A stretch of 64,000 nt of DNA, taken from positions 124,001 through 188,000 of the forward strand of contig CAMPDV010000382.1 in NCBI GenBank assembly GCA_946699065.1. Direction: 5' to 3'. This stretch comes from Loxodes magnus. Lineage: Eukaryota > Ciliophora > Karyorelictea > Loxodida > Loxodidae. The translations under genes were made by a program, and so were the position numbers. Positions 1 to 64,000 of this stretch are shown here, one piece after another (the stretch's first letter is position 1; every line of letters starts with the position of its first letter). The notes beneath the pieces are model-generated. The model was not told the DNA's origin. It made no database searches and worked only from the letters and a program-made list of their open reading frames with translations.

Positions 1-1
1 T

Positions 2-1498
2 ACTATCTGTCTTCCCTTGAATCTTCCGTGCAATCATTCAGTATGCCAACTATGCCTTTATACTGAATTCAAAATTAAAAGATAGAATAAATGTCCTCAG
101 TGTAATAAGCTTTCCAAGTTAAATCCTACTAATTTGACAAGGAATTAGAAAATACTATGTAATCTTTAGTTCCAAGAAAGATAAACTGGATTTGATGCTG
201 AGCTTGAAACTTTAAAATCTTGTCGTGATATTCTTAAAGAAACACTGGATGAGATTTCTAATCAACAGATTAGTATAACACAAGCAGTTCTTCGTCTCCT
301 TAACGAAGTCTTATTTAGTCATAGTAATCAAGCAATCTCAGATCTATCTTAGCATTTCTTTGCTCTTAATTAAAAAATTATCTCAATGGAACATCTTGCA
401 AACCTAAAAAAATATAATTAAAAAATTGATAGTGAGATATAAGAAGAATCATTCAATCTAAGTATATTAGAAAAAGCATAAACTCAAGGAAATTAAGAAA
501 TATAAAAGCTAAAGTGCTAAAAGAAAAAATTGATAAGTTACATTAAATAATTATTTGCTCTAGTCAGAGACTTTAATTTTGATATTTAAAATCCAACTAA
601 GAATGGAACAAAATTGTAAGATTTGTCATATTAGCAAGAATCTACTTAGCAAACTAGTAAAAGAGAAAACGATAAAAGTGAATCTCCTACTTTAATTAAT
701 GCTATCCATTTATTCAAAAGTCTTACTTCAGAAATGCATCTTTTTGATGTTGAAACTGAAAAGTATAGCCTTGTTTAAATATAATAATAAGTTCCTTTAT
801 TACACAAAAGTATAGAGTACCAAAATAAAATTTACCTAGTTGGAGGATATTGCTAGAATAAGGTACTTAAAACAACTTGGTAAGTAGATTATGATGGAAC
901 GTGTACTTAGTTAAGTGATTTAAACGTTGGAAGAAGAAGTTTCGGAATCGCAGCTGCAAAAGGATTTATTTTTGCAGTAGGTGGAAGAAATGGAGAAAAA
1001 TGTCTAACCTCCACAGAGAAGTTAGAATTAGAAGGAAAAAAATGAAAATATTTTTCTGAGCTTCCATTTGAAATAAAAGCGTAAACTCTGATAACAGATG
1101 AAAAGGAAGAAAATATTTTTTCATTTGGAGGTGTTAATTCTTAAAATAAAACTTTGAACGAAATTTTAAAATACAATATAGAAAGTGATAAATGAACTCT
1201 ATTGGACCATACTCTTCCTTACCCTTCTTATTTCTCAGCAATCCTTCTAGAACCAAAACTAATTTTTGGAGGTTGTAATCTAGAAACTTCAAAGTACTCA
1301 AATTAAATTTACAAAAAAAACGGTTCAGAATGGTATTAAGGAACACTTCCAGAAGAATGTTGCAGTTGGACATAACCAAAATTGAAGAATAGCTTTGTTT
1401 ATGCATGGATGCTGCAAGAAGGCCAAGAAAGCTAAATTTACGTTATAAAAATAGAAACGGAATCACTAAAATCAGAAACTTTAATGAAGGTGAATTGA
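2..1498 (+). CDS. RING finger / coiled-coil / kelch-repeat protein, 5' end missing
   Basis: The frame is open from base 2, so the N-terminus lies outside the window. The first residues carry the second half of a RING-type zinc site (CxPCxHxxC, C, then CPQC about 35 residues in). A Gln/Lys-rich helical stretch follows, then about 220 residues of kelch repeats with paired glycines (VGGY, VGGRNGEKC, FGGVN, FGGCN) and the usual W in each blade. Such proteins are often E3 ubiquitin ligase adaptors; that role is inferred. The end is the TGA at 1496-1498. A second in-frame TGA at 1517-1519 could instead be the stop. Several internal Trp are TGA and many Gln are TAA or TAG. No intron is needed. Confidence 0.8.
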
Positions 1499-1721
1499 TT
1501 ACAAATGAAGTAAAATTGAATCTACAGTTTATCTTCGCAATTAATAAATTTAATTATATTAGTTATTAAAATTTTTATCTATAATCTCTATTTTAAATCA
1601 ACTAAGTAATTTATTATAGCTAATTAAATGGAAATTTTTTTAACTATATTTTAATCTCCTCACTTTACTTAATAAAATAAGTTAAAAAATAGAGTTAATC
1701 ATAAACCTTAATTTTGTATTA

Positions 1722-3564
1722 TCATAAGTTAGTAGTAATTAAATTAGGAACATAAAAAAGTATGATTTGCTTAAATATTTAACTCCTCTTAGAATTTTAT
1801 CTAAAGCAATTATATTAGGTTTTAAGTAAATTTACTAAAATAGTGTGATATTATGTTTATTGATTTCTTAATTCCATGATAATTAATAATGTAGCTAATT
1901 TCTGGGATTTTGGAAGTTAAGAAAGCAACTAACTGTATCTTTCATACTACATCTAATTCACAGCTTATGTTATAGAAACTTATATATCTTAGATTTTTTT
2001 CCTATCCAGATTTATTTTGAATAGGAGTAATTGAATTTAGTATTAATGCTAAAGGAAAAAACTTTATTTAATGCTATAAAATTTTATTTATTGTTAAATT
2101 TTTTAGAATAGCTCTTTTCAATTATTAGGAGGAAGCTTTTCGATCTGCCAATATTTACTATGTGCTTCGTACATTTCCTGAATATCCTAATATGAATCGT
2201 TGCCTATGTTAGACTCGATTTATATTCTAAATAGGATCTTACTAGTCTATATATGAAGGATCTAAAAGATCTCTAAAAATTCCTTCTGTACATTGCTATA
2301 AGTTTTTTATTTTGTATCCCCCTTCTAAGATAAACATTGTTTTTGGTCTGAATTAAAATTTACTATATTTCTCTTAGTTTATGTGCAAGATATACGAATC
2401 CAGATTCAGTTACCGACATTCCACCAAGAGGATCATTTATAGCAGCATCAAATCCCGCTGAAACTAATATAACTTCAGGCTAAAATTACTTGATAATAGG
2501 AGAGAGAATATGATCAAACGCAAATTTAAATTCTTTATCTCCAACCTATTTCAATAATATCTTACCTCAAAAACATTTTAATTCCAAGGAATATTAACTA
2601 CAAAACCTTATGCGCTTGAGCCTCCTTATTCTTAAACGCTTCCAGATCCCTATAATAAGAAATTACTGGATAGAATCTTCCTCTTTAATATCTGTGTATA
2701 CTAATATTAAGTACTTTTGGCTCATTTCAAAATATATTTTAAGTTCCATTGCCATGGTGAACATCCCAATCAAAAATGCATACTTTTTAATAGTTCTTCT
2801 TTTTAATCAAATAAGAAGCACATAAAGCAATGTTATTAAAAATACAAAATCCAGAAGATCTATTAGCATCTGCATGATGCCCTGGAGGTCTCACAATTGC
2901 AAATCCAGAATCAATTTAATTTTTTATCAAAGCTTTTAATAAGTTAATGCAACCACCTGAGGATAATTTAGCAGCAAGTGGAGTAAAAACACAATCATAT
3001 GTATCTCCACCCATTAAATGACCAGAACTTTCCTTGCTACGTATTTTTCCTTATTTTTTATAATTTTAAAATTAAAAACTTTCAACATCCTAAATTAATT
3101 TTAGAGAATGAACAAGTAAAAGCTTATTTTAAGAAATTTACGTGCAAGGTACTTATCAGCATCCTCTTAAAATTTGTTTTTCTTCTAAGTTTTAGTAAAT
3201 ACTTAAAGTTCTATTACTTCCTTCTGGATGACTGTTAAATGCTGAAAATAAGAAACTTACGCTCATCTGAATGTAAAAGCATCCTTTCATCATAGCAAAA
3301 TCCAACTTTTTAATACTTTTGATTAGGTTGAGGACAAATAGCATCAAGCGATTTAAAGCTTTTATCTTTACTTTCAAGTAATCTTAATTCTTTTTCTTCT
3401 TCCGTCCAGTTTTCTTCTTTTTTTTCTTCTTACTTTTCTTCTTATTTTTCTTCCTGATTTATTTATTTACTTTGATTCTCTTCTACTTCTTTACTCTTTA
3501 TGTTCAAGTTTTAGATATTTTTTATAGCTTCCTTCGCTTTAGCTTAAAATGAACAGTTGCCCAT
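1722..3564 (-). CDS. class II (HDAC6-like) histone deacetylase
   Basis: Zn-dependent deacetylase of lysine on histones or tubulin. The catalytic signatures are clear: CYDERMLLH near residue 85, [25 protein letters not shown] and LEGGY. Five small introns restore the frame: 3242-3260 (19 nt), 2650-2666 (17), 2546-2565 (20), 2348-2363 (16) and 2227-2242 (16). With these removed the CDS is exactly 585 codons, ending in TGA at 1722. The last 100 residues are Gln-rich and have no match I know, so an additional intron there is possible. The N-terminus MGNCS resembles an N-myristoylation plus palmitoylation site, and a Glu/Lys/Gln-rich linker follows it. Convergent with the kelch gene. Confidence 0.92.
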
Positions 3565-4498
3565 TCTAATTAAAATTATAGAAATATAATAATTATTATT
3601 ATAAAAGCTCAGATATTAAATATCTATATTCGAAGATCTTCTAATCCATTTTTCTCAACAAGCCTTTAGCTACTTTAATTTTAGCCAAGAAATCAATTTT
3701 TTTCTGAAGCTAGCAACTTATTTGGCTTTCTGAGTTGTAAGTAAGTACTATGGTATTTATATTATATTCTGATATGAGAGTTAGATTTGAAAATTATATG
3801 ATAAATCCTAAGATGCATTAGATACTTCTAGATTCAATTTAAAATAAAATTAAAGCCTAAATTTAATTTAAATACTAGCCTATATATAGTTAATTCTACT
3901 ATACGCTTAAGCTTACTTGTGATTATAAGTTAACTCTAAGCTCTAAACTTAATTTATCTATATTGGTATTCTTATTTTCTTCTGCTTTTAGAGTCAAAGT
4001 TTGGACTTGAAACATTAAGCAGGACTAGCTAATGTAAAAAACAATAAAAGGAAAATTATTAAGAGCAAAACTGATATTTAAGAGTGTCTTAGTGCTAACT
4101 TTAGTTATAGTAATCTCTATTTAGTACTAAATCAAACTATCACTATAAGATAGTTGCTGAAAGGAATTTTGCAGGATTTTGATATATCGCAATTATTTTT
4201 AATTGCTTAAAGGCAAATTTTTGGTGAAGGCATATTAAATAATCACACTAAAGAGGTTATAAAATAAATAATGACATTTAGTCTAGTTAGTAATGACATA
4301 AGTTAAAAATAAATAAAGCTTATCATTGCTAAAAGTTGAAATACAAAAAAGACTAAAAATTAGCAAATTAAAAGCTAAAAAAGAAGAAAAATTGTTGAAG
4401 TACATAATTGCTAAAGGGTTTAGTTAAAATTACTATTTAAATTAAAAATCTAAAGCATTTAGATTAATCAGGTTAAAAAATATAATTAAAGCTATTAA
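3565..4498. other. intergenic stretch with an unassigned open frame
   Basis: Very AT-rich DNA between the HDAC start and the next convincing gene. From 4032 a plus-strand frame of 81 codons starts with ATG and has a hydrophobic segment near its start; it ends in TGA near 4275. I cannot tell whether it is a small gene, a 5' exon of the gene at 4499, or chance. Nothing else is recognisable. Confidence 0.3.
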
Positions 4499-5062: not shown

Positions 5063-5082
5063 AATAACCGTACTTTATATAA

Positions 5083-7752: not shown

Positions 7753-7861
7753 AATATCTGAGTGTAATTAAAGTTCTTATTTATATTTAGCTTGAAATTA
7801 AAATGAATAATTAAATTTTATAAGCATTTAATTGAGAATTGCATAATAGTTATATCTATCA

Positions 7862-17517: not shown

Positions 17518-19383
17518 ATGGTTGAAGCTAGTCAACAAACTATTTCGGCTTAAGTCTTTAGTGAAGTTTAAAGACTTAATGACTTTCGCTTCTAGTTTAG
17601 CGATAAGTGGCTTGAAACCAATGCGCCAAAATAGGTTTTGATATAGGTAGCTCTGCATTTCTTTTCTTAGGTAGATATTAACTCTATTCAAAGCGCTGTT
17701 AATGAAATAGAAAAATTTGTTAAATCCTTACTTGAAGCAAAGTGTGCAGTGAATCCATAAGATACTTATAAAGCTTAAGTTTTAGATTAACTTATTTTGG
17801 AGTCAATAAGTCATTTCCGTTGGTACAAGAGTCTACTTACTTATCAAAGTGAACCAGAAAAGTTCTAGCAAATTTAATCTGCTTTCTTGAAATCCACTGT
17901 GAGTACATCAGAAGAGCCTATTAAAGTATATTGTAGCTAAGATAACTGGATTTGGTATGGAAATTAAGAGGCATCATATAGTTTAGCTACAATGCCCTAA
18001 GTACAGTTAGCTGCTTAAATTTTATTTGACTAGTAAAAGTAAAAAAAAATTGGAGTTGTTGCAGCAGGACCTGCTGGAACTGGTAAAACTGAAACTTTTA
18101 AATATATTGGAGCTAGACTTGGATATGATTTCATTGTAATTAACTGCTCTGATGAATTTGAAATTCAATAAATAGCGCATAGTATAGAAGAGGCTTTTGC
18201 ATAAGGAAATTCTGTTATTTTTGATGAATTTAATAGATGTTCAATTGAAACTGCAGAAGGACTTACAAGCCTAATGTAAGAACTTTAAGCTATTAAATAG
18301 AAATTTACTTTACCTCTCTAAGCAAACGAAAGAAATACTACTCAAACTGGACAATTCAATGGTCATGAGATAACCATCAAAGCCTCTTCTATGATTATTT
18401 TGACTGTAAATCCTGGATACTAAGGTAGAACTGAAGTACCAAAAGAATTTTACGAGTTTTGCTCAAGAATGGAATTTTTAACTCCATAATTAGAGCTGCT
18501 AATTCCAGCTGTAATAGCACAATAAGGAATTTGTAATGATATATAGTAAATAGAGAATTTAGGTCCAAAATTAATTGGAGTATTTAATAATTTGAAAGAA
18601 AGAGCATCTAAGTAAAGTTGGTATGACTTTGGATTAAGAGCTTATATGTAGATTATTAAGATTGCTTAAACTATCAAGAAACACGAAAAAATAGAAAGTG
18701 TAGAAGAAATATTTTTATTAGCCATTGCTATGAAATATTAAGTTTTGCTGGTATAGTAAGATATTCCCATTTTTGTAGAAGTTCTTAATTCTTAATTCCC
18801 TAATGCATAAGAGTTTATTCTGAACTATCGAAAATCAAAACTTGAATAGCCTGCTGTTCAGGAAAAAATAAAGAACGCTTTTGCTGAAGCTTAACTTCCT
18901 CTTCCTTTAGATATAGTTGGAGATTAATTACTCTTAAAGGCTTCTTATATTGCTAAGGTTTAAAATATAGGAACAGGAGTTTTGCTTTATGGAGACTATT
19001 AAAAATCAGATTAACTCTTGAACTTAAGTTCTAAACTTGTGAAATAACTTTCAGGCTCAGATATCGTTTTACATGATCCCATCGATTTTGATAGTTAAAA
19101 TTATGAATAATTATACGAATAACCAGGTTCCATTGTTAACACCACATAGTAAGCAGTTGAAGATTAATCAGGAAAGTTGCACTGGATTTTTTTAAAAGGA
19201 GCAATACATGCTAATAAAATAGAGAATCTAAATACAGTTCTTGATGCTAATCAAGTTCTATTTCTTAATAATGGATAAAGAATTAATATTCCTAACAATG
19301 TTAAATTCATCTTTCAGACTAATAACTTAGATATGGCAAGTCCAGCTTTCATTTCAAGAGTAGTTTTCGTGAATGCTGAATGA
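17518..19383 (+). CDS. short dynein heavy-chain-like protein (AAA1 plus degenerate AAA2)
   Basis: 621 residues, while dynein heavy chains are about 4000-4600. Residues 1-150 match the end of the dynein linker. AAA1 is intact, with Walker A GPAGTGKTE near residue 186, Walker B SVIFDEFNRCS and NPGYQGRTEVP. AAA2 is recognisable (residues about 470-620, ENLNTVLDANQVLFLNNGQRI and MASPAFISRVVF), but its P-loop is replaced by YGDYQKSDQL and the LDG position reads LKG, so nucleotide binding there is doubtful. The frame ends at TGA 19381-19383, exactly after AAA2, and the following DNA has no dynein sequence. There is no AAA3-AAA6, stalk or microtubule-binding domain. It is either a stand-alone dynein-related ATPase or a truncated copy. 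Confidence 0.85.
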
Positions 19384-19627: not shown

Positions 19628-21288
19628 ATGAATAAATCAGCTTTAGATTAGATATTCATGAATGAGGAAACTGCTAATGTGAGGGGTCTGAATTCGTTTC
19701 TAAAGGGATAGAATATATAGAACTAGTTTAAAAAAAGAGAGGAGTTTTAGATTTAAATACGCAAAAGTCATAGATTTGAGTAGCATAATAAAAGGAGAGC
19801 TATTAATTAAATGGCTCCAGCAAGCTAGCAGGATAAGTTTGTGCAAATAGGAAAATTTATAATTCATCATGCTATCTTAGAATAGAATCTAATGCTAAGA
19901 GATTAAAATGATAGTTTAAGCTCAAAGATTAGGGAAGTTCTAAAATTGATGAAAGTAGAAAATCAAAAACTAAACATTCCTCTTTTATGTCTATAGTCTA
20001 TAAGATGGATGGTAAGCACAAACGAAGAACCAGAATGAAAGGCTTTTATTGAAGCTGGAGTGATTAATGAGTTGGCTAAATGGCTTAATCTAGAATATTC
20101 AGACAATATATTGTATGAAGTAACTTGAATTTTATAAAATTTGGCTTCAGGAGCTTCTTAGCTGACAGAGATAATAGTTAAAGAAGGTATTGTGGATGGT
20201 TTAATATAAATTCTGAAATCGTAAAAGAAAATAAATGTAAAGGAGTAAAGTTTATAAGCTTTAGCTAATATAGCTGGAGATTAAATCTAATTTAGAAATT
20301 TAGTACTTAGCAAAAATATTGATACTATAGTATCAAGTCTAATGCAAAACCAGAATTCAGATTCTTAAATGGCCTCACTTATAGCGTGACTAACCTCTAA
20401 TTTTACTATTGGAAAAGAAAAGCCTGATTTTCATAAGTTGAAAGGTTTTATTCCAATTTTGAGTAAAATACTTAAAGAAACTAAGAAGGAAGAGATAATA
20501 TTGGAAATAATGCTATTTACTAGTAGGTTTAGTGATATGGGAAAGTGTGCAATTGATGTAATATTAAGCTAAGATATGCATAAAACTATCATAGGGTAGC
20601 TAAGTAGTCAGAATTACAACATTTTAGAAGTTACTTTAAAAGCATGTGGTAACTTAATATGTGGAGATGATGATTAAACTCAAGAAATGATTAACTCTAA
20701 TTTATTGTCGTTTCTAAAGCCATTAGTTAAGCATAATTCTACTTTTATAATTAAGGAAGCAATGTGAATCTTCAGTAATATAGCAGCTGGGACTGTAAAT
20801 TAAATTGAAGAGATGCTTACTTAGAATATTTTTTAGGATATTCTTGATATGCTTACCAATGTTAGTCCTAAAGTAAGCTTTAATTTCAGATTTAGATTGA
20901 GTGTGCTTATGCCTTGTAAAACGTAACAGCAGGTGCTGATGAGAAGCAGATGTTTAAGCTTATTAATCTTGACATATTACAAAGAATGAAAGTTTTTCTA
21001 TCTGAGATAAAAGATAAAAAGATACTCTTAATTTTAATGTAGTGTCTAAGGAATCTGTTTAAATTTGGATCTCAAGTATAAGCTGAAGGAATAAATAAAA
21101 TACTTGTAGACTTTGACTAAATAGGAGGCACTGAGGTTTTAGAGCAACTATAAAATCATTAAAGTTCCTAAATTTATAGTGAAGCTGCTTTAATAATTGA
21201 ATAGTTTTACGGTATTTAGGAAAGCTAAGTCATTGGAAACACTTCAGCTAATTTAGATATTCCACAGAATGGATTTTGCTTTTCATGA
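19628..21288 (+). CDS. importin alpha (karyopherin alpha)
   Basis: Adaptor that binds classical nuclear localisation signals and importin beta. Residues about 30-60 form a basic importin-beta-binding domain (FKKREEFQIQIRKSHRFEQ, NKRRAI). Armadillo repeats follow, with the Trp/Asn pairs of the NLS groove, for example VTWILQNLASG, SLIAWLTSNF and AMWIFSNIAAG; several of these Trp are TGA. One intron at 20873-20889 (17 nt) restores the frame into IECAYALQNVTAG. Total 548 codons including TGA 21286-21288. Length (547) is typical of the family. Ciliates usually have several importin alphas, so the exact paralogue is not assigned. Confidence 0.93.
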
Positions 21289-30878: not shown

Positions 30879-33389
30879 TCACAAAAACTGCTTCACTATT
30901 ATCTGAATTAAACTCTCAGTCAAGGGCTTCACTAATACTTCATTAAATCCTGCTTCCTTAAATCGTTAAATCTATTCCAAATTGCTATGCCCAGTTTGAA
31001 GAATAACTGCAATTCTTCTTAGGATTTTTTGCCTGTTTTCAATATCTCTTATTTATTTTAGTAACTGCTCTCCTGTCATAGTATGCATTTCTTAATCAGT
31101 TAGTACTAAACTGATTTTATAGTAGTTCTCTTCTATAAACTCAATAGCTTCCTCTCCATTCTAAAAGATTTTCAAATTTATTCCTAAATGCTCAAAAAGG
31201 GATTTTATTATAATAGAACTAAAGTTGTCATCATCTACAAAGACTACTAGTCTCTCTATTTTACTCAATTTTTTTATATTAGTTTAGAAAAATTAGGGAT
31301 GTAGATTTTATTTTTCTATAGATAAAATATTATTATAATTCTATTTGCTATCGCTAAGCATATACATTTTCGATTGTATTTCGAATTCCCTCAAACTTTT
31401 GCTGATTTGATTGATTTGACTTATTTTCTCTTCATCTTAAGTATCAAATATGCACATTTCGGGATAATAGTTTAAGCATTTCTACTGAGTATCTTCTATT
31501 GAGTGCGAATGGACAAGTTAAAACCCTACTTGTTTGCTAATTATTTCCATTATATTTGAGATATTTGAGTCTTCAGTTTGAAGTAGTATATAGATGTTCT
31601 TAAAATTATCTTGATCATCCTACATTTTATCAGGTTGAATTTGCGAATGAGGGATTTCTACTTCCAGGTTAAAATGAAAAATAGTTCCTTTGTTTTAAAA
31701 GGAAAGAACATTGAGAGTTCCTCCCATGCTGTTTATTATTTTTTTACTAATTCATAAGCCTAATCCTGTTCCAAAAAATTTGCTTTGAGTATTTTTGTCT
31801 CCTCTATAGAATTGCTGGAATAAGTTATACTAAGTTTCTGGATACATTCCAATACCTTCATCCTCTACTTGAATTAATAGCCTTCCTTTTTTTTCGTACG
31901 TGTAGAAATAAAGCTTTTAATGGCGAGCCTTAAATGAACTTTTCATAGAAAAGCAAGTTTCTTTTGGTATCAAAGTGTTAGATTTAGTTTATTAGCAGGA
32001 ATTTCTTACTAGCAAACCTTTTTAATTGAAGTAAGGCTGCTAAAGGTCGGATTTTTTCTTCTAATAAATCTTTTATCCATTCAAATGCAGCGAACTTCTT
32101 ATATCCATGTTTTAAAACTCATTTATATCTGATTATGTTCTAACTGTGAAGCTCTATCTTATAGAAGGCTTTTCTTTATAAGATCTAAGATAGGCATTTT
32201 GGGAATTAACAAACTCTTAATAAGGATTTTTTTACTTATTTTCTTCGGAAATTGAGTCTTCATCTGGAATCCAATTGACTTTGATGACTACATTTCCTTG
32301 TTCAGTGAATTTAACAGCATTGCTCATTAAATTCATTAATACCTATGAAATTTTATTCCTATCCATTAGTAAATATTTAGGCACTTTAGGATCAACATCA
32401 TATGAAAGACATAATTGCTTTTTAGCTGCCTGATTACAATTTGACATAAATACGTTATAGAGAATTTTCCTAAACTCTAAAGGCTCTTTCTACAGCACCA
32501 GTTCATTTCCATGCTAAAGCTAGCTAACATCTAAGATATTATTCACTAAACATAGTAGTAAGTTTCCACTCTAAGTTCCAGCTTCTATGATTTAAGAGTT
32601 CTGGTCATCCTCTTAAAAATTATGCTTGATAGCAGCAAGACATCCAAGTATTGAACTAAGAGGAGATCTAATTTCATGATTAACTGAGGCTATGAACTAA
32701 TTTTTTTCCTGATTAGATTACTTTTCTTTAGTCAATAAATTCTGCATTATTTCAAAATACTTATTGTGAGTAGTATTTTGAGTGTGCTAGATAAACAGGA
32801 CATAACTAGGACAAAATATCGTAATATTAAGATACTAGAGGTCTACTATCTGCTTTATGCTAGCTTTTAGTTCGTTGATGTCTTAAAAATTTTAGATATA
32901 TTGGTCAAAAATACCTTTACTCTAGAGTATCCAATAAGCAGACATTGCAAATACAACTAAAGTAGCTTTGATGCTTTTCCCTATCATGTAGTTTATTTAA
33001 ATATTACTAAAAGTTCACATTATTGCAGCCAATATCTGATTTTCTTCTTAACGGGCACACATTGTGTTGAATCCTGCAAGAAGGATATACTAAAAGGCAA
33101 CTGCTAGAGCCAGATTATTTGAATATTTCATTATTAGCAATGAACTGACTAATATTAATGGTATTGCGAATAGTGCTAAATCTGTACCAGAAAACGTACC
33201 CGTAGATATTACAACGCTAGTAGTAAGAATCAACAATAGTCCCAATGTAAAAATATTGATTTTAGCAAGTAGCGAAGCGTTTAACTTCTAATCGATCTCC
33301 TAGAATATGTTAGTACTTTTCAGATTAGCAGTTAAGAATTAAATTAGATTTGATTATTTACCTAATATTTTCGAACTAATACTTTCCAT
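30879..33389 (-). CDS. membrane-bound hybrid histidine kinase with receiver domain
   Basis: 836 residues in one exon. Residues 30-190 hold several hydrophobic membrane segments. The dimerisation H-box is ASVNHEIRSPLSS with His near residue 239. The ATPase domain has an N-box (NKISQVLMNLMSNAVKFT), G1 VEDEGIGM and G2 GTGLGLWISKK, where that Trp is a TGA codon at 31752-31754. The C-terminal receiver (residues about 710-830) keeps the acidic triad VDDDN, phospho-acceptor LTDQEM (near 763), QTGH and VKPL. A sensor kinase would autophosphorylate and pass phosphate to its own receiver; the signal is unknown. The stop is a double TGA (30879-30881 then 30876-30878). Confidence 0.93.
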
Positions 33390-35016: not shown

Positions 35017-35739
35017 TCATCTAAATTTGAACATTGTCTCGAGATTTCTTGCTATCTAACTTTCCCAAGTGTCACCCATTTGTAGCAACTTCTCCTTATT
35101 ATAAAGCAATGCAGTGTGCTTTGTAGTAGCTATTTCAAGGTTAGGTCCCATAACTATCGCATCAACTGGACATGCTTCTTGGCAAAAACCACATAAAATG
35201 CACTTTGTGATATCAATATCGTATCGGGTGGTTTTACGAGCACCATCAGGTCTTGGTTCAGTTTCAATACTGATTGCCTAAGCTGGGCATGTGGACTCGC
35301 AAAGTTTGCAAGCAATGCATCGTTCTTCTCCAGTTGCATAGCGTCTTAAGACATGTTCACCTCTGAAAATAGGAGATAGAGGACCTTTTTCAATTGGATA
35401 AGCAAGTGTAAATTCTGGTTCAACTCCATGCTATGCAATAGTCAACATAATTTTAAACCAATCCGAAAAAAGTAATTTTCTATGGAATTATTCGATTATA
35501 TAATCCCAGCAAATTTCTTCATCATATTCGTTTACATGAGGAGGCTTAGAATTTTTTGCATCCACGAAGAAAGACATAAATGGATTATAATGAGGATGGT
35601 TTTGATCCAGTGGAGCATTTTCGAAAGAATATTGCTATCCTTAAAATTCTTAAGCAATTGCTGCAGGTCTTGGATTATAACTAACTTCAGCTTATGCAAA
35701 GGTTCTAATCAATATTTTTAATTTCGAATACTTCCACAT
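35017..35739 (-). CDS. NDUFS8: NADH:ubiquinone oxidoreductase subunit NDUFS8 (TYKY, 23 kDa)
   Basis: Complex I hydrophilic-arm subunit with two 4Fe-4S clusters (N6a, N6b) on the electron path to ubiquinone in the mitochondrial inner membrane. Both motifs are complete: [12 protein letters not shown] and [28 protein letters not shown] precedes them, as in all homologues. 240 residues in one exon, ATG 35739 to TGA 35017. The first 20 residues ([16 protein letters not shown]) are basic and amphipathic, fitting a mitochondrial targeting peptide. Residues about 25-85 form an N-terminal extension. Base composition is less AT-rich than the neighbours, typical of a highly conserved gene. Divergent from the plus gene at 35824. 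Confidence 0.97.
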
Positions 35740-36665: not shown

Positions 36666-39600
36666 TCAAGGCTTGAGTATACTTCCACATACCTCACATT
36701 TCGTGTTATTTGCATCGTTTAGAAGAGTACATGTAAGGCAACTTATTTGACTATCTTATGGTAAATTTAAAGGAATTTCAGGGCCACAAGCCATATCCAT
36801 AGCCATATTTTAATAACTAATCTAAATATTTAGGTCGGAAATTTAGCTATTTGCTTATTCTTCTTTATATTTGTATTTAAAATCAACTGTTCCCCATGGA
36901 AGTTCGGGGACTTTTTTTATTAATGTTAATACTTCTTTTTTACTGAATAATTAACTTACCTCTTAGGAGGGATAACTGAGCGAATTGCATTAATTGGATA
37001 TAAAAAATTTGAATCTTCTGCTCCATGTATCCAAAGCTTAAAGTTAATATTGCTCGAAGTTTAGTTTGAGACATGTGCTATATATATGCAAGTCTCTATC
37101 TACTAGTTTTCTTCTTCCACTTCTTTCGAGCATTCTACAGTTTCTTCCTTCTTTTATTCTTCCTGCTTTTGTTCTTCCTGCTTTTACTCTTCCTGCTTTT
37201 ATTCTTCCTTCTTTTGTTCTTCCTGCTTTTACTCTTCCTGCTTTTACTCTTCCTGCTTTTATTCTTCCTGCTTTTACTCTTCCTGCTTTTATTCTTCCTG
37301 CTTTTACTCTTCCTGCTTTTATTCTTCCTGCTTTTACTCTTCCTGCTTTTATTCTTCCTGCTTTTACTCTTCCTGCTTTTATTCTTCCTGCTTTTACTCT
37401 TCCTGCTTTTATTCTTCCTGCTTTTACTCTTCCTGCTTTTATTCTTCCTGCTTTTACTCTTCCTGCTTTTATTCTTCCTGCTTTTACTCTTCCTGCTTTT
37501 ATTCTTCCTGCTTTTACTCTTCCTGCTTTTATTCCTCCTGCTTTTATTCTTCCTGCTTTTATTCTTCCTGCTTTACTTCAGCAGCATCATTTGCTTACTA
37601 AATTTGCTCTTAAGGCTATTCAACTGCGCTTTAATTTTTAGCACTTTCACTATTTTGAGCCTCTTTTTATTTCTACTATAACACGATTAAACTAGCAGAT
37701 ACCTATTAAACAGCTTAAGCTAGAGCTTCTGCTTTTGTTTTGAATTTAGGAATTGCATTGTTATTCATTCCATTTGGTTCTGAAGGCTTTATTGGAACAG
37801 AATATTAAGTCATGGTGAAAATGAGATTTTCTGCCATTTCCTAATGATGATTTATTTCTTCTCCTTTAGTTTTTCCATATATAAATTGACCTCCATTAAG
37901 TGTTTCTTGAATACTTTGCTTGTAAGCTAAAAATTAGTCTAAAGCTTCTTTTCCTAATTCTTTGTTTTTGTTAGCATAATAATTTTGCTTAGTAGTCTCT
38001 TCTAAGTAAGTAACTAGGAATTGCTCCATCCAATCAGTGTATCTTTGATACTGATAAGTAGGAGGGGGAATGCTCTATAGGAAGTTTCTTAATTCAGAGC
38101 ATTCATTACTTATCTTGAATAGGTGCTTAATGCACATTACACAATAGCTATCCCATCTCTTCTTTGAATTCCATAACAAATGTATTATTCCTTCTGTCTT
38201 TTGATATACTGGAACTTGGTAGAAAAGAGGAGTTGGATAGTTGAAAATATCATCTTCGATATAAACTATTTATCCAGCTCCAAATTAAGGAGGGAGCTAT
38301 TCATTATTCTAAACGCTCTTGAGAACTGGAAAACCAAAAAGCCATTCAAACCTATTTTACTGTAGAGAATCTTTTAGAGTAAGTATTTTGGATAATGTTT
38401 CATAGAATGGCTTCACTGCGTCATAGTCTATTTCGTTAAGTCCTTTGAGTAAAATAATGCAGATAGTTTTGCTGAACTTATAGGACTCATAACACATATG
38501 AGATACTATATCTCCTAAGGCGTTTCCATCGTGACCTTCTCTCAAAGTTTTATCGTAAAAGTCAGGATTTATTATGCATTAGAATTCAATTTCTGATAGC
38601 TTATGAGGTTCTGTACCTATAAAAGTTGGGATTTCTTTTGCTGATTCTCCCATTTTTGTTGTAGACTCACAATATCTTATCAGAAGGGCGATGGTCTAAA
38701 TTACTGATTCTAACTTAGCTGGCCAATTTTTAGATCCTATTACGGGTCTTTTTTCTCCTTGCTACAATAAAGGAGATTTATTACCAAGGTAAAAATCTAT
38801 TAAAACTGCAATTCACTGATTTTAAAGCATATACTAGATTTGATATTTCCCTCCCAATGCAAAATTCTTAATGAACTCCAAAAATTAATCAAATCTAAGC
38901 CAGCATTTTGGAGCTTCCTTTAACAGAATTTGTGTTACATTCCACATGAAAGAATGAGTTAAACTTCCTTAATTTAAACAGTTTTCTTATTCATGGAAGC
39001 AAACAGAATTAACAATGTAGCTATAGAGCTTTGAAAGACATACTCTAGCATGCTTATCACTACATTAGAGAAGCACGTTCTAGAATTAACCAAGCTAAAA
39101 TGAAATTTCTTCCTTAATGATTTCAAAGCATACTTGTGGCTTAACACTTAACAAGTTTATTAAAATATCTACTAGTTCAGTTAGTCTAAGGTTTTGATAT
39201 GCTCTTGGCATCACTTCAAACGCAAATTTCAAGCCTACTTAAATAATTTGATCGTATGTCTAAGAATATTTTTGTACTAGCTCATTAACTTTCTCTGGTT
39301 GCTTGTTTAAATCTGGAATCGGAACGCTCTTAAGCAGGTCAACAATAAACTTAAAGAAATCATCATGATAAATATGCCTTTCAAGCATAAATGTGTAGTT
39401 ATCCTTTAAAACATTTTCACTTATGAATGGAAGGCATGTTTTAGGCAAATCCTCAAAATTGACTAGATTTACTGTTTCCTATTAAGGATTCTCTGTACTA
39501 TTTATTTCCTAATTGACTACTACTCTAATCTATTTTTTCTAAATTCTTTCATAAACAAGCATATATGCGTTTTTAGAGGATTCTCTCATTGATTTAAAAT

Positions 39601-49285: not shown

Positions 49286-49303
49286 TTATTATTGTTAGAA
49301 ATT

Positions 49304-50619: not shown

Positions 50620-52383
50620 ATGGATAACTAAAATAGCTTAGAGAATAACCTTGTTACCTCTTAATAATAAAGACTGAAGAAGATACATAAATCTAACTAG
50701 GTCTGTTAAATTAAAAACAAGAGAAGCAATTAGAAGGCACTTCTGAAAAAGCAATTTCTGTAAATGAAATTGAACACTAAAAGAAAAATTTTAGTAGTTT
50801 GTAGGGATGGAAATCTTTCATATGTTTAAACTATATCTGCTAAAATTGATGTAACAACCATTTTAACCAATAATCTCTTTTCGGGGCTTCATATTGCTAG
50901 TATGAATAATCAAACAACTGTCTCTATTTTTCTAATTGAATGAGTTTAGTAGAATTTAAATTAAAGCTCTTAATCTTTAAGTCCTAAGTCACCTTAGAAC
51001 CTATTTCAAAAGGACAGCTCAGGAAATAAGAAATTATTAAACTTCATTAACTTAAAAACATCTGAAGGATTTACTGCTCTGCACTTTTCTTGCTTTAAGG
51101 GAAACCTTTAGTTGACACGAATTTTTATTGAAAAAGGAAGTAATATGCTACAAGAAATTCTAAAGGCTAGACAATAATGCATGTAGCTGCATAATCAGAT
51201 CAAGTAGCAGTTATGACGTTTCTTAGAGAACTGAATTGCTCCGTTAACGATGAAGATAACAATGGAAGCACTCCTTTGCATTGAGCGGCTTATTTAGGTA
51301 AGAATTAGCTGTATTAATTCTTTTAAGTTAAAATCCTTTAGTAGACATTGCAGATCACAATGGTTTTACTCCTTTATATTTGGGAATTATGGCTGGAAAT
51401 GCTCGAATTGTTAGATATTTACTTTTAAAAGAAGCAAATAGAAAGGCTACTGACAATAAAGGAAGAACATCTATGAATATAGCCAAAGAAAAAAATTAAT
51501 TCAATAATTCCTTTATATAGCCTCCAGTATTTGCAGAAGTTATAGGATTAAAACATCTATTAGCTCCTTATAAGGAAGGATATTTTTCTTTTCTCGTTTT
51601 TTTATTACTGTATGGTATTGGCAGTACTATTGTAGTTTATTTCATATTTCCTAAACTTAACTTATATCTTTGAATCATCTCAAGTGCAATCATTTTTCTA
51701 AGCTTTATTCCTTTTCGCTGTAGTAGTAAACAAAGATCCAGGTTATTTAAAACAGAGTCCTTTCATCAGTTTTTTGGTAAATTATAACTCACCAATTATA
51801 TGAAAGATATGACCCTAATTTAGTATGTCCAATTTGTATAGTTTTCCGAACATCGAGATCAAAGCATTGTCATTTTTGTAATAAATGCGTCTAAAAAATT
51901 GATCATCACTGTCCTTGAATAAGAAATTGTGTAGGTGATAAGAAATCTTTTATACAGAAATCAAAAGTTTTCGTTTGATTTGCTCTGCTTGTAGCTATAA
52001 GTCTAATAGATTCTATTTTCTTAACAATTCTAAATTTTCTAGATTCTAAAGGAGAAGATTTCGTACTGATAATACCTGAAGATTAAACTGACTTTGAAAT
52101 ATACTCCTGTCTAGCCATTTTATTGGTTTCTATTTTATTTCTATTCCTTGTTTCGTAAATCCTTTTATTCAGATAACTTCTATATTTCTAATCCAGAGAA
52201 TTAAGATTGAAAAAACTATTTAAGGGCGTTTTTCTAAGTTTAAGCAATAACAATAAGCAAGTTTAATACTTAAACAGGATTATCAAGAAAATTTTGAAGA
52301 TAAATAGATTCTAGAATTAACAACTAAAGATTCAAAAAAATCTAACGAGTTTTTAGGCTTTTTATAAACAAATATCCGCATGA
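50620..52383 (+). CDS. ankyrin-repeat DHHC palmitoyltransferase, two apparent frameshifts
   Basis: Protein S-acyltransferase. A polar N-terminus is followed by four or five ankyrin repeats (GFTALHFSCFKGN; QTIMHVAAQSDQ; GSTPLHWAAYLG; GFTPLYLGIMAGN), two membrane segments and the DPGYLKQ motif. Then come the Cys-rich domain with CPIC, HCHFCNKC and the active DHHC (KIDHHCPWIRNCVG), and two more membrane segments. The invariant Trp after DHHCP is TGA at 51916-51918. Introns at 51684-51702 (19 nt) and 51757-51769 (13 nt) fix two frame changes. Two others, at 51146/51147 and 51301/51302, fit only a missing base: each ankyrin repeat would then be exactly 33 residues. They may be sequence errors or real mutations. 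With both allowed for, the frame is exact to TGA 52381. Confidence 0.85.
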
Positions 52384-52410
52384 TTATAAAGCAATTTAAA
52401 ATAAAATATT

Positions 52411-55319: not shown

Positions 55320-55355
55320 TTATATTAGCTAACTTTAATTAAATTTACCAATAGT

Positions 55356-55809: not shown

Positions 55810-55810
55810 A

Positions 55811-56185: not shown

Positions 56186-56201
56186 TTTTACAAGTCATGA
56201 T

Positions 56202-56834: not shown

Positions 56835-56871
56835 AGATTTCCAGTTTTTTGTCAGAAACTACAACGTTTTA

Positions 56872-59200: not shown

Positions 59201-59417
59201 AAATCAGTCGTAAATTTAAATGAGTAGAGTATTATTAAGGTAATAGGATAAATAGAGGGATATTAATTTAGAACTGAAGAAATAAGAGGAAGATTAAAGG
59301 GCCATATTTTTAAATAAGAAGAAGTTCGTTAAAATTTAAATAAAAATCTCTTAGAAATATTAGTTTTTTATATAGGGTTATTTAAATCGTTAGAACTATA
59401 TTAACTATATAATAACA

Positions 59418-59780
59418 ATGGACACAAAGAGAAAGAAGAAGCAAAAGGCTACATCTGATAAGCCTAAAAGAGCTATGACTGCTTATTTCTTTTACCTTGC
59501 TGAGAGAAGACCTATTATTGCTGCAGAAAAATCTAAACTTAAAGGACCTTAAGTTGTTAAAGCTGTTTCTGATGAGTGAAAAGCATTAGATGAATAAGCT
59601 AAAGCTCCTTTTATAGAACGTGCTGAAGCTGATAAAAAACGATATGCAGCAGATATGAAGAATTGGCGCAAAAATGACAAGACTGAAGAGGGTGAAGGAG
59701 CAAATCCAAAGAAGAAGTAGAAAAAGGCGGAAAAAGGATCCAGCGAGGATGCAGGTAGTAATGAAGGAGACAGTGATTGA
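59418..59780 (+). CDS. HMG-box (HMGB-like) chromatin protein
   Basis: 120 residues with one HMG box that bends DNA in chromatin. A basic start (MDTKRKKKQK) precedes the box: KPKRAMTAYFFYLAERRP, then VVKAVSDEWKALDEQAK, then RYAADMKNWRKN. The box Trp in SDEW is the TGA at 59577-59579, a strong check of the code. The tail is Lys-rich then Glu/Asp/Ser-rich, ending GSNEGDSD, as in HMGB acidic tails. Ends at TGA 59778-59780. No intron. A single box with acidic tail matches the small HMG proteins of other ciliates. Confidence 0.95.
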
Positions 59781-59853
59781 TTTAATTAATGTTCTCAAAT
59801 TAATTAACTCTAATTCATATTTAGCTTCTCTAATATCTTTTAATAAATTACAA

Positions 59854-60544
59854 ATGGAGATTATTGCCACGCAAGAAACTCTTTAGAATAAGCTCACTGC
59901 CTTAGATAAACTCTGTGTTCTTCTTGTGGGAACTCAAGACGAAGATCTTTAGCCCCAAGTGCAATAACTCTTAAATGTTCTCAACACTCTGAAAGCAACA
60001 AATCAGCCTTTTGCAGCATTTTACAGATTAGATATAGAGAATCTACCAATTATGAAAGATATTTGGGAGATAAAAACAATACCATCTGTTGTGTTTGTAA
60101 TGTGGGGTCGACTTCTTGGTAAAGTGGAAGGAGCAGATGCCGTTGCTGTTGTGGAAATGTTTAAGCAAAAAGGTCAATAATTCTAATAAGAATTTGAAAA
60201 TAAGAAAGAACAAATTTTTGCTAAAATCAAAGGAATAATTGCCAGACATCCCCTTGTGATGTTTATTAAGGTAAGAATTTACTCAGGGAGAACGAAATTA
60301 ACCTAAATGCAAGTTTACAAGATAACTTCTTGAGTTACTCGCTGATAATTAAGTTGTTAATTTCGAAACTTATGATATTCTTAGCGATGAAGAAGTCAGA
60401 TAGTGGATTAAGATTTATTCTGATTGGCCAACATTCCCTCAAATTTATGCTAAAGGTGAATTCAAAGGCGGAGTCGATATTCTCTCTGATATGGTCCAAA
60501 ATGGACAACTTAAGCAGGAATTACCATCTGAAGCCTTTGCCTGA
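59854..60544 (+). CDS. glutaredoxin-3-like protein (thioredoxin fold plus monothiol glutaredoxin)
   Basis: 224 residues. The N-terminal half follows the thioredoxin-like domain of Grx3/PICOT ([29 protein letters not shown]). The C-terminal half is a monothiol glutaredoxin: [59 protein letters not shown]. The usual CGFS active site reads CKFT. Grx3 proteins hold a glutathione-ligated 2Fe-2S cluster and act in cytosolic iron handling; with CKFT this needs checking. One intron at 60271-60286 (16 nt) restores the frame to TGA 60542-60544 (225 codons). Start at MEIIATQE; no earlier Met is in frame. Confidence 0.92.
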
Positions 60545-60811
60545 AAAAATAATTAACACATTAAACTTAAAATCCCTAAAATAAATACCCTAAGTCTAAA
60601 TTTTATTTCCATTTTTCTCTTTCGAAACAGAAGTTTCTTATTAATACAGTGGCTCCTTTTAAATCTTCTCTAAAAATGAGCATAACTACTAGAATCACTT
60701 TTAATATAAATGCTTATTTCTAAAAGCTTAGCTACAACTCTTTACTTACTTCCTACAAAAGTAGTTCAATTACTAGAATGTCTTATGACTTTGGATTAAC
60801 TTAATTAAAAA

Positions 60812-61201
60812 ATGGCTAATTAGTAGTATTTAAAAATTTAAGATTCCATGCAAATATAATAAGTCAGTATAGATATTACAACTACTGGTGCTGATTAATC
60901 ATTAATTTCAAGTTCTATAGTTTATTATCTAGCAAAGATTTACATATTCAAAATTTCAGATTGATATAGGAATAAACATAGCAAATGCCTTTTATCTAAA
61001 TAGCTGCTCTTTTACGAACTGAAGCTTTTTTATCTTAAATATTTAAGATAAAAATAACTTTTATACACAAACTATAGATTCAAGAGTGATGCTTAGAAAT
61101 ATTAAAACTAAGATAATCTTTTTTGTCTTTGATAAGTTGAGGAAATCACTAAGTAGGCAGATCCTTCTAATGATTACTACGATAATAAATAAGATGATTG
61201 A
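60812..61201 (+). CDS. hypothetical protein, 129 residues
   Basis: ATG 60812 (MANQQYLKIQDSMQIQQVSI) to TGA 61199-61201, with an acidic tail (VEEITKQADPSNDYYDNKQDD). Two more in-frame TGA codons follow within 35 bases (61223 and 61232), so the first is taken as the stop. Two internal Trp are TGA. Convergent with the kinase. No family recognised. Confidence 0.55.
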
Positions 61202-61289
61202 GCATTATATAAAAGAAATATATGAAAGGTATGATTGAGTGATAATGAGATTATAGATAGTTTAAGATAAATGCAATATTAAAGCTGTT

Positions 61290-62441
61290 ATTAATTGTTT
61301 GGAGGAATTCCTTCCTCGTTTCCTTCAAATGTAAAACCATCAAAATAATCTAACGCTAATTAAATTTACCTCTTTGATAACTTTCTAGCGGAATGTTTGA
61401 AGGCGTGTCTTTTGGAGTCATTTTTGTGAATGCATCTTCGAAATTACTTGCATCTTCGACTCCTTTCACTTCAGGTACGTAAGGAGGTGGAACTTGCTTT
61501 TTATACATTTTAGTTCAATCGATATTTCCAAAGAAAGGATGCTACTTTATTTATTCAATTTTTATTCTTAACTCTGGATTTTTATTTAAAATTTAGAGAA
61601 CTAATTGCTTGAAGTCACTCGGGGCTGATTGAGGAAACCTAGGTTGCACTGATAAAATTCTCTTGTACATCTCTTGTCTGTTAGAGTGATAAAAAGGAGG
61701 TCTGGCTAATACTATTTCATATAAAAAATTTCCAAAACTCCATACATCAACAGGTTTTCCATATGCGTATCCTTGTAGAACTTCTGGGGCAAGATATTCA
61801 GGAGTTCCACAAAAAGTTTTAGTACCATTAGGCAAATCAATTCCTTCTTTAGCCAGACCAAAATCTGTCAATTTAATGTGACCCTCTTCATCTAAAAGGA
61901 CATTCTCAGGTTTAAGATCCCTGTAGATAACATCAAGACTATGCAAATGCTCTAGGGCTAATAAAACTTCAGCAGCATAAAATTTAGCCCTATTAAGATC
62001 AAAGCCTCTAGTCTCTTTTAAATGAAAAAAGAGTTCTCCTCCATTGAAATAATCAAGAACCAAATAAAGTTTATCAGGAGTTTAGAAAGCAAATCTGAGA
62101 GAAACGATAAAAGGATGATCAATTTATTCTAAAATTCTTCTTTCTGTTGCAGTGTGTTCCGCTTATCCTTTAGAAAAGACAGTTTCCTTCTTAATAATTT
62201 TCATAGCATATATTTATTGATTTTTCTTAAACTTAACTTAGCATACTTTTCCATAAGATCCTTAACCTACTACTTTCAAAAGTTCGAAATCACTAGGTGA
62301 AAGAGATGGAATTTCGACAGTTGTATAAAGTTTTCCAAGAGTGGATTTAGTTCTAGGCCTTTACTAATCCTCTAAGTTATCCTAACCTTCAGCCTCTTAG
62401 TTCTTATTTTTAATTTTCTTCTTTCCTTATTCATTTCCCAT
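61290..62441 (-). CDS. AGC-family serine/threonine kinase
   Basis: Starts MGNEQGKKK, a possible N-myristoylation site. Kinase domain from about residue 50: glycine loop GQGSYGKV, Lys in YAMKII, YRDLKPENVLL, TDFGLAKEG, activation loop TKTFCGTPEYLAPE with its phosphorylatable Thr, and DVWSFGNFLYEI. The C-terminal tail has PPPYVPEVK and, after a 14-nt intron at 61356-61369, the hydrophobic motif YFDGFTFEG used for PDK1/TORC2-type control. This places it near the PKA/PKB/S6K group. The exact stop is not resolved; the sequence is clear to about 61294, and no TGA follows soon in the spliced frame, so another small intron may exist. Confidence 0.92.
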
Positions 62442-62571
62442 CTTTATTTATATTTTCTTATCATTCACACATTCAACTTCTTTAACTGTATACCAACCAT
62501 ATATATTTTACCTTATTGTATACTTTTTTTAACTAAACTATGTCAGACTCTTAATATATAGAGCCTGACGT

Positions 62572-62997
62572 ATGATTGGATCTTGGTAACTTGAAGTATT
62601 ATTAAATGATTTTGGAAATTCTTACTATCAGTTGATATATTTGGCTACTAAGGTAAAGCAATCATATTATAAAATGCGTGATAAATTGATTACCAAATTT
62701 AGCATACTTAGCACCTAAAAAGTAATCACCAAGCGCTTTAGCCTGAATAGTATTTTTATTAGCTAGTCAATTTATTAAAGACTATTAACTAAAACCTATT
62801 TAAATGCTAACTTCTTCCTTCCTCTTACTTTATAAGAGATATTCTAACCTTTTATTAAATACCATCTATTTTAATCAGCAAAAGCAAGTAAAAAGGAATA
62901 TATAAAAAGTATATTTAGAGAGGAATATGAGTGTAGAGGTTTAGACTAACTGGAATATACAGTTTTAAACAATTAATTTAGATTTAATTAGTTTTGA
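62572..62997 (+). CDS. hypothetical protein, 141 residues
   Basis: Single frame ATG 62572 (MIGSWQLEVLLNDFGNSYYQ) to TGA 62995-62997, without internal TGA. Mixed helical sequence with a charged C-terminal third (SAKASKKEYIKSIFREEYE; CRGLDQLEYTVLNNQ). The phosphatase start follows 19 bases later on the same strand. No family recognised. Confidence 0.5.
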
Positions 62998-63016
62998 TTA
63001 AAATAGTTAATAGGAA

Positions 63017-63940
63017 ATGTTTCCAAGTTGTGATGAAATTGTCGATAATCTTTTCCTTGGTAATTACTCTGCCTCTTCTAACATTAAGATGCTTTAAAAT
63101 AACAGAATTACTCATATCGTGGTAGCTGCTTTCGGCTTACCAAAACTATTTCCTAATAGGTTTCAGTATAAAGTTCTGTAGTTAATGGATTTACCTTCTG
63201 AAAACATTTCTAGGTATTTTGATGAGACAGTAAAGTGAATTGAAAAGGCGATAGAAGGTAATGGAAGAGTGTTTGTTCACTGGTAAGATTTTATATAGCC
63301 TAGCTGGTATTTCACGAAGTTCAACTATAGTGATCTCTTATCTAATTTACAAAGGAATGAGCTTTAACGATGCTTTCAATCATTGCAAGCGTAAGCATAA
63401 AGTCACTTCTCCTAACTATGGCTTCTAAAGGTAACTTATGAACTGAGAACTCAAAATTGTAAGTATTTTATACAGCAAAAAGGTAAAAAGTAATAAAATA
63501 CCCAATCTGCTAGAAACGTATTACAAAAAGATCATATAGCACAATAAGGAAAAAGGCATTTCGTCCAATAGAGTAGCGCATTTAACTAAGAGGAATAAAA
63601 ATTTCTTGATCTTGGCTTTAGAATGCCAGTTGCTTAACCAAATCCTGTTTAATAAAGCGAATAAAAGCTATAAGCTCAAAGAAAGAACTAATTAGAAAAG
63701 CCTTATTATGTTAAATATGCTTATAACAAAAGTTTAGCTCCCTATAATAGTAAATAGGATGAATAAAGGGAGAACAAAAAAGGGACATAAAGCTCTTTAT
63801 CAAATTTAGCGAAGAAAAGAGAAGCGCCTATGCATTAATCTCTACAAAAATTCACAATTAATGGAAAAAGTTCAACTTTGTTAAATGGTACTCAAGGAAG
63901 AAATGTGTAGAAGGGTTCGTTTGTAGATAAACAAGTGTGA
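63017..63940 (+). CDS. dual-specificity protein phosphatase
   Basis: 296 residues. The first 150 form a DSP domain: DEIVDNLFLGNYSASSN, ITHIVVAAFG, general acid in MDLPSENI, and the signature HCLAGISRSSTIVISYLI. The catalytic Cys codon is split by a 16-nt intron (63283-63298, TG|C). A second intron lies at 63459-63475 (17 nt). With both removed the CDS is exactly 297 codons to TGA 63938-63940. The C-terminal half is a basic Gln/Lys/Ser/Asn-rich tail with no domain. DSPs of this size dephosphorylate MAP kinases or related proteins; the substrate is unknown. Confidence 0.93.
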
Positions 63941-64000
63941 TATTAATAATAAATATCTAATAAACTCCATATCATGATGCGCGAAAATCACTCTTTTTCT

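Follow-up and report, generated by a model that had tools for sequence, protein, structure and literature searches.

The window, by which we mean the whole 64,000-nucleotide stretch of Loxodes magnus contig CAMPDV010000382.1 that was analysed, is very probably macronuclear DNA of a karyorelict ciliate. It holds genes for an importin-alpha, a hybrid histidine kinase, NDUFS8 (complex I TYKY), a USP9X-like protein, a zDHHC palmitoyltransferase, an HMG-box protein, a glutaredoxin-like protein, and an AKT-like AGC kinase (about 62441-61288, minus strand), and TGA is found both within these genes and at gene ends (Table 1). The USP9X-like gene comprises ~3,035 codons, is interrupted by two introns of 17 nt each, and closes on a CxxC zinc-finger-like stretch. 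The glutaredoxin-like gene, which we take to be such from its motif, gave no match in any scan. Candidate introns are 16-23 nt long, and the available part of PMC11441545 gives a mean of 19.3 nt and a mode of 17 for L. magnus, with a MAC assembly of 706 Mbp.

Table 1. Sense TGA codons, gene ends, and a candidate intron in the window
Feature	Position	Strand	Evidence
Sense TGA, Trp of DHHCP-W, zDHHC palmitoyltransferase gene	51916..51918	+	Aligned to W of ZDHHC9 8hf3
Sense TGA, HMG-box Trp	59577..59579	+	Aligned to W of NHP6A 1cg7
Sense TGA, G2 box of hybrid histidine kinase	31752..31754	-	Pfam HATPase_c; inside GLGL-x-ISK
Sense TGA, Trp of NIDW, AKT-like AGC kinase	61515..61517	-	Aligned to W of AKT2 8q61
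Sense TGA, ARM-repeat Trp, importin-alpha gene	20126..20128	+	Aligned to W of 4tnm
Sense TGA, ARM-repeat Trp, importin-alpha gene	20387..20389	+	Aligned to W of 4tnm
Sense TGA, ARM-repeat Trp, importin-alpha gene	20765..20767	+	Aligned to W of 4tnm
Stop TGA, NDUFS8 gene	35017..35019	-	Homologous C terminus
Stop TGA, USP9X-like gene	36666..36668	-	End by gene model only
Stop TGA, HMG-box gene, after acidic tail	59778..59780	+	Gene model; GC drop 0.45 to 0.18
Stop TGA, glutaredoxin-like gene	60542..60544	+	Gene model with 16-nt intron; GC 0.40 to 0.18
Candidate stop TAA-TAA, AKT-like kinase	61288..61293	-	In-frame TGA absent over 173 codons
20-nt GT..AG intron immediately ahead of the hydrophobic motif, AKT-like kinase	61350..61369	-	Splicing extends AKT2 alignment through motif

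The sense meaning of the three codons was read from 1,926 window codons aligned to PDB chains. Gln was the most enriched residue opposite both TAA (13/67, p = 3e-7) and TAG (7/32, p = 1e-4), and the conserved Gln of histone H4 is written TAA or TAG in 4 of 9 H4 genes. Trp lay opposite 6 of the 10 aligned TGA codons (p = 1e-10), with the other 4 opposite different residues and Cys opposite none; a longer USP chain would add an eleventh TGA, opposite Lys by eye, giving 6/11 at Trp. At the Trp column of DHHCP-W, scored with neutral letters across 48 DHHC genes, 45 carry TGG or TGA (30 and 15, respectively), while the remaining 3 carry TAA (L045), TTC, and ATG in one gene each. The first-pass annotation had held that known families stay open only if TAA, TAG, and TGA are all read through, and the families do read through all three. 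It had also placed TGA at three invariant Trp positions, which holds for the DHHCP-W motif and the HMG box; the third codon is indeed a minus-strand TGA within the histidine-kinase G2 box, but that position is Ser, Val, Ala, Ala, and Ala in the 5 chains shown. An in-frame TGA might instead mark a pseudogene or encode Cys or Sec, while elsewhere TGA would simply stop translation as in the Tetrahymena-type code (table 6), a view that would fit the lower frequency of TGA than TGG in the predicted window genes (38 versus 64 of 11,023 codons). We give this explanation almost no credence because aligned TGA falls at Trp and never at Cys, and because 15 of 48 genes have TGA in the DHHC column where most others have TGG; UGA, which is never sense under table 6, is sense in both the PDB alignments and the DHHC column.

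TGA also terminates genes. In NDUFS8, TGA is codon 427, immediately after the residue that aligns with the C-terminal residue of chains 9cwt and 5xtb. All 9 histone H4 genes have TGA straight after GFGG, with TAA as the stop in none, and of 50 Ras/Rab genes whose end is marked by a prenylation motif, 47 reach a TGA within 3 codons and the other 3 show only TAA. Thus, UAA and UAG as Gln, UGA as Trp inside genes, and UGA as the stop at gene ends are all found here, and the assignment to the karyorelict code (table 27) was right, with the Trp and stop meanings of TGA each backed by separate tests. The observation is real and mostly known already: as given, it repeats a genetic code published for the L. 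magnus nucleus (table 27 in the available part of PNAS 2024, PMC11441545). The further claim that each gene ends in TGA stands for NDUFS8 by homology and for the HMG-box, glutaredoxin-like, and USP9X-like genes by gene model, but not for the AKT-like kinase, which likely ends at TAA-TAA.

Several features of this kinase bear on its end. Past the TAA-TAA the next 145 nt are free of TGA in every frame and the first 113 nt contain no GT, the coding score goes negative, and GC falls from 0.30 to 0.22. Paralogues stop at this spot or nearby: TAA occupies the position of the kinase TAA in both L080 and L081, and L085 has TGA at a comparable place. A candidate intron lies at the site matching that of Table 1 in L080-L084. 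Three close kinase paralogues share 17-19 of 29-30 residues before the TAA (over 30 codons, counting the unspliced intron), compared with 5-8 of 16-25 after it (loose gapped alignment), with alignment scores of 88-103 before versus 9-25 after. The end proposed by the gene finder, at 61146, was rejected in favor of the spliced model, since its frame loses the hydrophobic motif. On these sequence features, we conclude that the kinase most likely ends at TAA-TAA (61293-61288).

Similar candidates were found at other loci. Among kinases, L097 and L103 are further candidate TAA ends, as is L102, which was compared with L090. Among Ras/Rab genes, L145, L141, and L158 are those with TAA only. The CxC prenylation motif works only at the C-terminus; Rab L145 ends CNC followed by TAA, while its paralogue L131 ends CNC followed by TGA. 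Rab L158 was accepted after two introns, one of 16 nt and one of 17 nt, were traced by eye in its three frames, with 75 nt from the TAA onward examined; a script search for a single intron in this gene returned none. The CC-TAA of Rab L151 was judged spurious, as it sits in another frame, and in L148, L169, L170, and L176 the TAA comes 1-2 codons ahead of a TGA and fits TAA as Gln equally well.

These cases must be weighed against strict table 27, under which UGA is the sole stop and apparent UAA ends run on to a UGA, either across an intron that escaped recognition or through a longer tail of low complexity. UGA is called the only stop codon in the available part of PMC11441545, every Parduczia transcript inspected had it where a stop was expected, according to the portion of Swart 2016 (PMC4967479) available, and it is reached in all of the H4 genes and 47/50 of the Ras/Rab genes here. 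Moreover, a GT occurs within 60 nt past the TAA in several cases (first GT at 43 nt in L080, 19 in L081, 50 in L097, 18 in L103, 55 in L102, and 18 in L145), so introns after the TAA are possible in some candidate loci (GT distances of 18-55 nt). An in-frame TGA follows 27 codons downstream in L081, 48 in L097, 52 in L102, and 22 in L141; L103 keeps 11 of 26 residues after its TAA in a loose alignment, and sequence errors may also play a part. Against strict table 27 stand the window kinase, with its long stretches free of GT and TGA, the joint fall of kinase coding score, GC, and paralogue similarity after the TAA, and the CxC of Rab L145 directly before TAA where L131 has TGA. We therefore regard strict table 27 as unlikely. 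That no codon other than TGA stops translation is doubtful: TGA is the main stop, but 3/50 Ras/Rab genes and several AGC kinases show TAA alone. Taken together, the gene ends suggest that a minority of genes are still terminated by UAA.

Codon use just before the stops was followed in 45 Ras/Rab genes, whose paralogues are not independent of one another. Their last stretch contained no in-frame TGA in 774 codons (5.6 expected, p = 0.008), with 52 in ~7,200 codons of their domains, and the TAA:TAG ratio moved from 198:98 in the domains to 24:29 in the last stretch (p = 0.003). TAA was not depleted in absolute terms (24 versus 21.3 expected, p = 0.56), and TAG was enriched (29 versus 10.5 expected). 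The absence of TGA and the drop in TAA:TAG agree with the pattern reported in the available part of PNAS 2024 (PMC11441545), in which UGA and UAA, and not UAG, are depleted before stops. The window itself, which had been put forward as offering many paired examples for studying stop context, is without power for this purpose, as ~1 TGA would be expected across the final 20 codons of its 16 predicted genes; we dropped a window-only depletion test for this reason and because the gene finder itself assumes TGA stops.

The same counts bear on a Condylostoma-type code (table 28), in which each of the three codons can be either sense or stop. Although some genes here appear to be stopped by TAA, UAG, which also terminates under table 28, was the only stop in none of the 50 Ras/Rab and none of the 9 H4 ends, and TAG before stops is enriched rather than depleted. 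We consider table 28 very improbable. The reading we prefer, at a probability of roughly 0.85 for the explanation as a whole, is that UAG and UAA encode Gln, UGA encodes Trp and is the main stop, UAA is a weak minority stop, and UAG is never a stop. More specifically, UAG is probably Gln only and UGA Trp or stop, while UAA is probably Gln and also a genuine terminator for about 1-17% of genes (the 95% range from 3/50 Ras/Rab genes), a usage that paralogues share and in which UAA and UGA replace each other at one site.

Drawing on the literature, we infer that sense would be the default reading: within the message the Trp tRNA would outcompete eRF1 at UGA, and near the poly(A) tail (median 3' UTR of 41 nt) eRF1 would win and terminate. 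To this we add, from the gene ends, that UAA may retain a weak stop function that ends a small share of genes, with UAG sense only. A tRNA-Trp pattern search gave 33 matches versus 22 in a reversed control; ARAGORN, run on 14 of 30 loci from this search, reported no tRNA, and the most tRNA-like match, L011, had no good anticodon stem by eye. The feature this search looked for has been reported in Loxodes by a paper that PMC13092985 cites. Scanning the window with Rfam and ARAGORN gave no match. The top PF03463 match (C2) was rejected as eRF1, being Pelota. Of two C196 copies, the one read is eRF1-like (NCBIfam aRF1_eRF1, E = 2e-36, with 125 bits from a fragment, below the whole-protein cut-off) and carries GRAQNIKS and FFLCENTF; the usual eRF1 motifs are TASNIKS and YxCxxxF.

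Our literature search on UAA stops in karyorelicts found no report in the parts of the sources available. The abstract of Seah 2022 is said to allow that stop-UAA perhaps occurs in a small minority of karyorelict transcripts, which would cover the UAA result here. As far as the available parts of the respective papers describe them, the closest known systems compare as follows. The published L. magnus code (PMC11441545) shares short introns, UAA/UAG as Gln, UGA as Trp and stop, and the lack of UGA before stops, but has UGA as its only stop, so that the minority UAA stops suggested here fall outside its described gene model. Parduczia and relatives (Swart 2016, PMC4967479) share the assignments, sense by default, and ends set by closeness to poly(A), whereas the stops inspected in Parduczia were UGA. 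Condylostoma magnum (table 28, Swart 2016) likewise uses UAA and UGA as both sense and stop; UAG stops there, in contrast to 0/59 UAG-only cases among the conserved or motif-marked ends here. The Blastocrithidia nonstop code (PMC12153298, PMC13092985, PMC12005148) also has UGA as Trp and UAA as sense and stop, but UAR is Glu and only UAA keeps a stop meaning, whereas Loxodes reads UAR as Gln and stops mainly at UGA.

The original observation confirms a known code, and its value lies in that confirmation. The paired ends, such as Rab L131 (CNC-TGA) and L145 (CNC-TAA) or those of the AKT-like kinases, present within one genome the same gene end with seemingly different stops. Loxodes RNA data that already exist can therefore be used to test directly which codons eRF1 recognises and what governs the choice between sense and stop. 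If the minority UAA stops are real, gene finders that accept only UGA would misplace the 3' end in some percent of genes, running past their ends, and UAA would be a codon caught part-way through reassignment.

Base counts give the window (C382:124001-188000, in a genome of 705,730,643 bases and 7,843 contigs) a GC content of 27.7% over its 64 kb, and its gene models carry introns of 16-23 nt. For the L. magnus MAC assembly of 706 Mbp, a published account (PMC11441545) gives introns with a mean of 19.3 and a mode of 17 nt and a median 3′ UTR of 41 nt. We searched 20 of 22 self-trained coding segments, with flanks, against Pfam (60272-60535 and 63473-63937 were left out in their frame) and could place 10 of the 20 in a family with E no higher than 0.001. 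Pfam and PDB searches together identified kelch, dynein AAA, importin-alpha, ABC transporter, hybrid histidine kinase, NDUFS8, USP9X-like hydrolase, HMG box, AKT-like AGC kinase, and DHHC families. The dynein-related model represents either a motor fragment that stands alone or one part of a longer gene with additional, overlooked exons. In the USP9X-like gene, tandem repeat units encode a QKQEE-like peptide, with one Gln written TAA in most units.

Features of the window and loci of the same genome (L-numbers) read for comparison
Feature	Position (strand)	Identity (kinase paralogues)	Observation
Dynein-related gene model	17518-19383 (+)		621 codons; Pfam matches are AAA families, dynein AAA_6 best
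Ciliate hybrid histidine kinase	30879-32747 (-)		HisKA, HATPase_c, and response-regulator domains
NDUFS8 end	35019-35017 (-)		TGA immediately follows the position that matches the C-terminal residue of chains 9cwt and 5xtb
Tandem repeat	37142-37574		15 bp, 28.9 copies, within USP9X-like gene
Intron of AKT-like kinase	61369-61350 (-)		20 nt
Candidate stop of AKT-like kinase	61293-61288 (-)		TAA-TAA
L080, kinase		83%	...FLPKP-TAA
L081, kinase		79%	...FPPKP-TAA-TAA
L085, kinase		56%	...EEFNKP-TGA-TAA
L084, kinase			DPNQ-TAA-TGA
L082, kinase			PTN-TAA-TAA-TGA
L083, kinase			TAA, then TGA seven codons later
eRF1-like gene hit	G000:C196:19713-20081
eRF1-like gene hit	G000:C196:54613-54981

The first-pass annotation had assigned the karyorelict code (NCBI table 27), and this assignment is correct: TGA occurs at Trp, TAA and TAG at Gln, and TGA at the ends of histone H4 and NDUFS8. 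We compared nine stretches of eight window genes (1,926 codons) with PDB chains, hand-picked from the displayed alignments and not always the top hit. TGA stood opposite W six times, V twice, and I and L in one case each. Using the top-ranked USP chain (7yxx) would add an eleventh TGA, by eye opposite Lys. Gln was the residue most enriched at both TAA (13 of 67) and TAG (7 of 32). These alignments carry a mild bias, the proteins having been pre-translated with TGA as W. A DHHC test was free of it because the motif was located by neutral letters, with Trp excluded. Among the window gene and 48 of the first 49 genome loci (C95:230353 excluded), the motif was recovered in 48 of 49 sequences, L071 being the exception, and the Trp column read TGG 30, TGA 15, and TAA, TTC, and ATG once each. 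The TAA belongs to L045, which also has RPPSCS instead of RPPRCS; this gene shares contig C89 with L005 and L008 and may be a copy in decay. Conserved Gln is TAA or TAG in four of nine histone H4 genes. The TGA at 31752 (minus), previously listed as an invariant Trp of the histidine kinase G2 box, is present, but the position is not an invariant Trp, since the five chains displayed have S, V, A, A, and A next to GLGL on its C-terminal side.

All nine H4 genes found terminate in GFGG-TGA. Ras/Rab C termini are CC, CxC, or CAAX motifs, which allowed a census of gene ends in 60 of the first 64 of 150 matches (C129:379046 was excluded, as were C1564, C1655, and C1155, which look like copies of C1661). 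A prenylation-type motif ended 50 of the 60 loci and was absent in the own frame of ten (L127, L130, L137, L151, L159, L164, L166, L167, L171, and L173). TGA lay within three codons of the motif in 47 of 50 (45 by count, with L122 and L136 read separately), three showed TAA only (6%, 95% range 1-17%), and none of the 50 was read as TAG only. The three are L145 (SCNC-TAA, with no in-frame TGA over the 43 codons examined; its paralogue L131 ends NCNC-TGA), L141 (CAAX-like CLIF-TAA, in-frame TGA 22 codons further), and L158 (KCCN-TAA, 75 nt examined from the TAA on). In four of the 47 (L148, L169, L170, and L176), a TAA precedes the TGA by one or two codons, so these genes cannot tell a TAA end from a TGA end. 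They form a Rab subgroup with CC-TAA and then TGA within two codons; their relative L157 reads CC-S-I-TGA.

The AKT-like kinase of the window appears, from its sequence, to stop at TAA. Once its intron is removed, the alignment to AKT2 carries on across the hydrophobic motif, and the spliced frame reads DYFDGFTFEGNEEGIPPNN-TAA-TAA. Read on in frame, it meets a TGA only after 173 codons with a strongly negative coding score, and TGA is absent from every frame over 145 nt past the TAA. Among this gene, L080, and L081, matches fall from 17-19 of 29-30 before TAA (unspliced intron counted) to 5-8 of 16-25 beyond it in a loose gapped alignment; GC falls from 0.30-0.33 to 0.21-0.24. L080 and L081 are weaker cases than the window gene because a GT follows the TAA (first at 43 and 19 nt, respectively) and, in L081, an in-frame TGA 27 codons on.

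We inspected 29 of 30 kinase loci (L087, a partial match, was excluded), judging ends by eye in a sample biased by choosing the family for the window gene; the tally leaves out L099, L100, L105, L106, and L108. Further ends that read as TAA only were seen in L097 (with its copy L098), in the L097 paralogue L103, and in L102; at a comparable place, the L102 paralogue L090 carries TGA. Identity of L097 and L103 is 14/30 before TAA and 11/26 after (alignment score 68 to 19), and that of L090 and L102 is 12/28 before the end and 8/29 after (56 to 11), drops that are clear by alignment score but less so by identity. TGA ends L085, L086, L088-L096, L101, L104, and L107; L082-L084 have TAA shortly upstream of TGA. 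In L085, L094, L095, L104, and L107, TAA follows TGA immediately; such a TAA may act as a back-up stop or reflect chance in AT-rich DNA.

Over the final 14-20 codons of 45 Ras/Rab genes from among L118-L177, compared with their Ras domains (taken as 160 codons per gene), TGA was absent (0/774 versus 52/about 7,200, Fisher p = 0.008), TAG enriched (29/774 versus 10.5 expected, p = 1e-5), TAA near expectation (24 versus 21.3, p = 0.56), and the TAA:TAG ratio lower (p = 0.003), all p-values being somewhat too small because the genes are relatives. For the roughly 20 codons before stops, PMC11441545 describes depletion of UGA and UAA and not of UAG.

The code observation is real, correctly filed, and already published; one of its supporting examples, the G2 box position, is wrong. 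The earlier statement that TGA is the only stop stands as to TGA being a stop; judged from the TAA-only ends, "only" is probably too strong. The UAA part may also not be new, since a 2022 karyorelict abstract reportedly already suggested a rare stop-UAA. The two eRF1-like gene hits lie about 35 kb apart, and the N-terminal domain of the copy read (L179) contains GRAQNIKS and FFLCENTF. For Condylostoma and Parduczia, Swart 2016 (PMC4967479) proposes that sense is the default reading and that, close to the end of the transcript, poly(A)-binding proteins probably override it. In Loxodes, the gene ends suggest that a residual stop function would have been kept by UAA and not by UAG.
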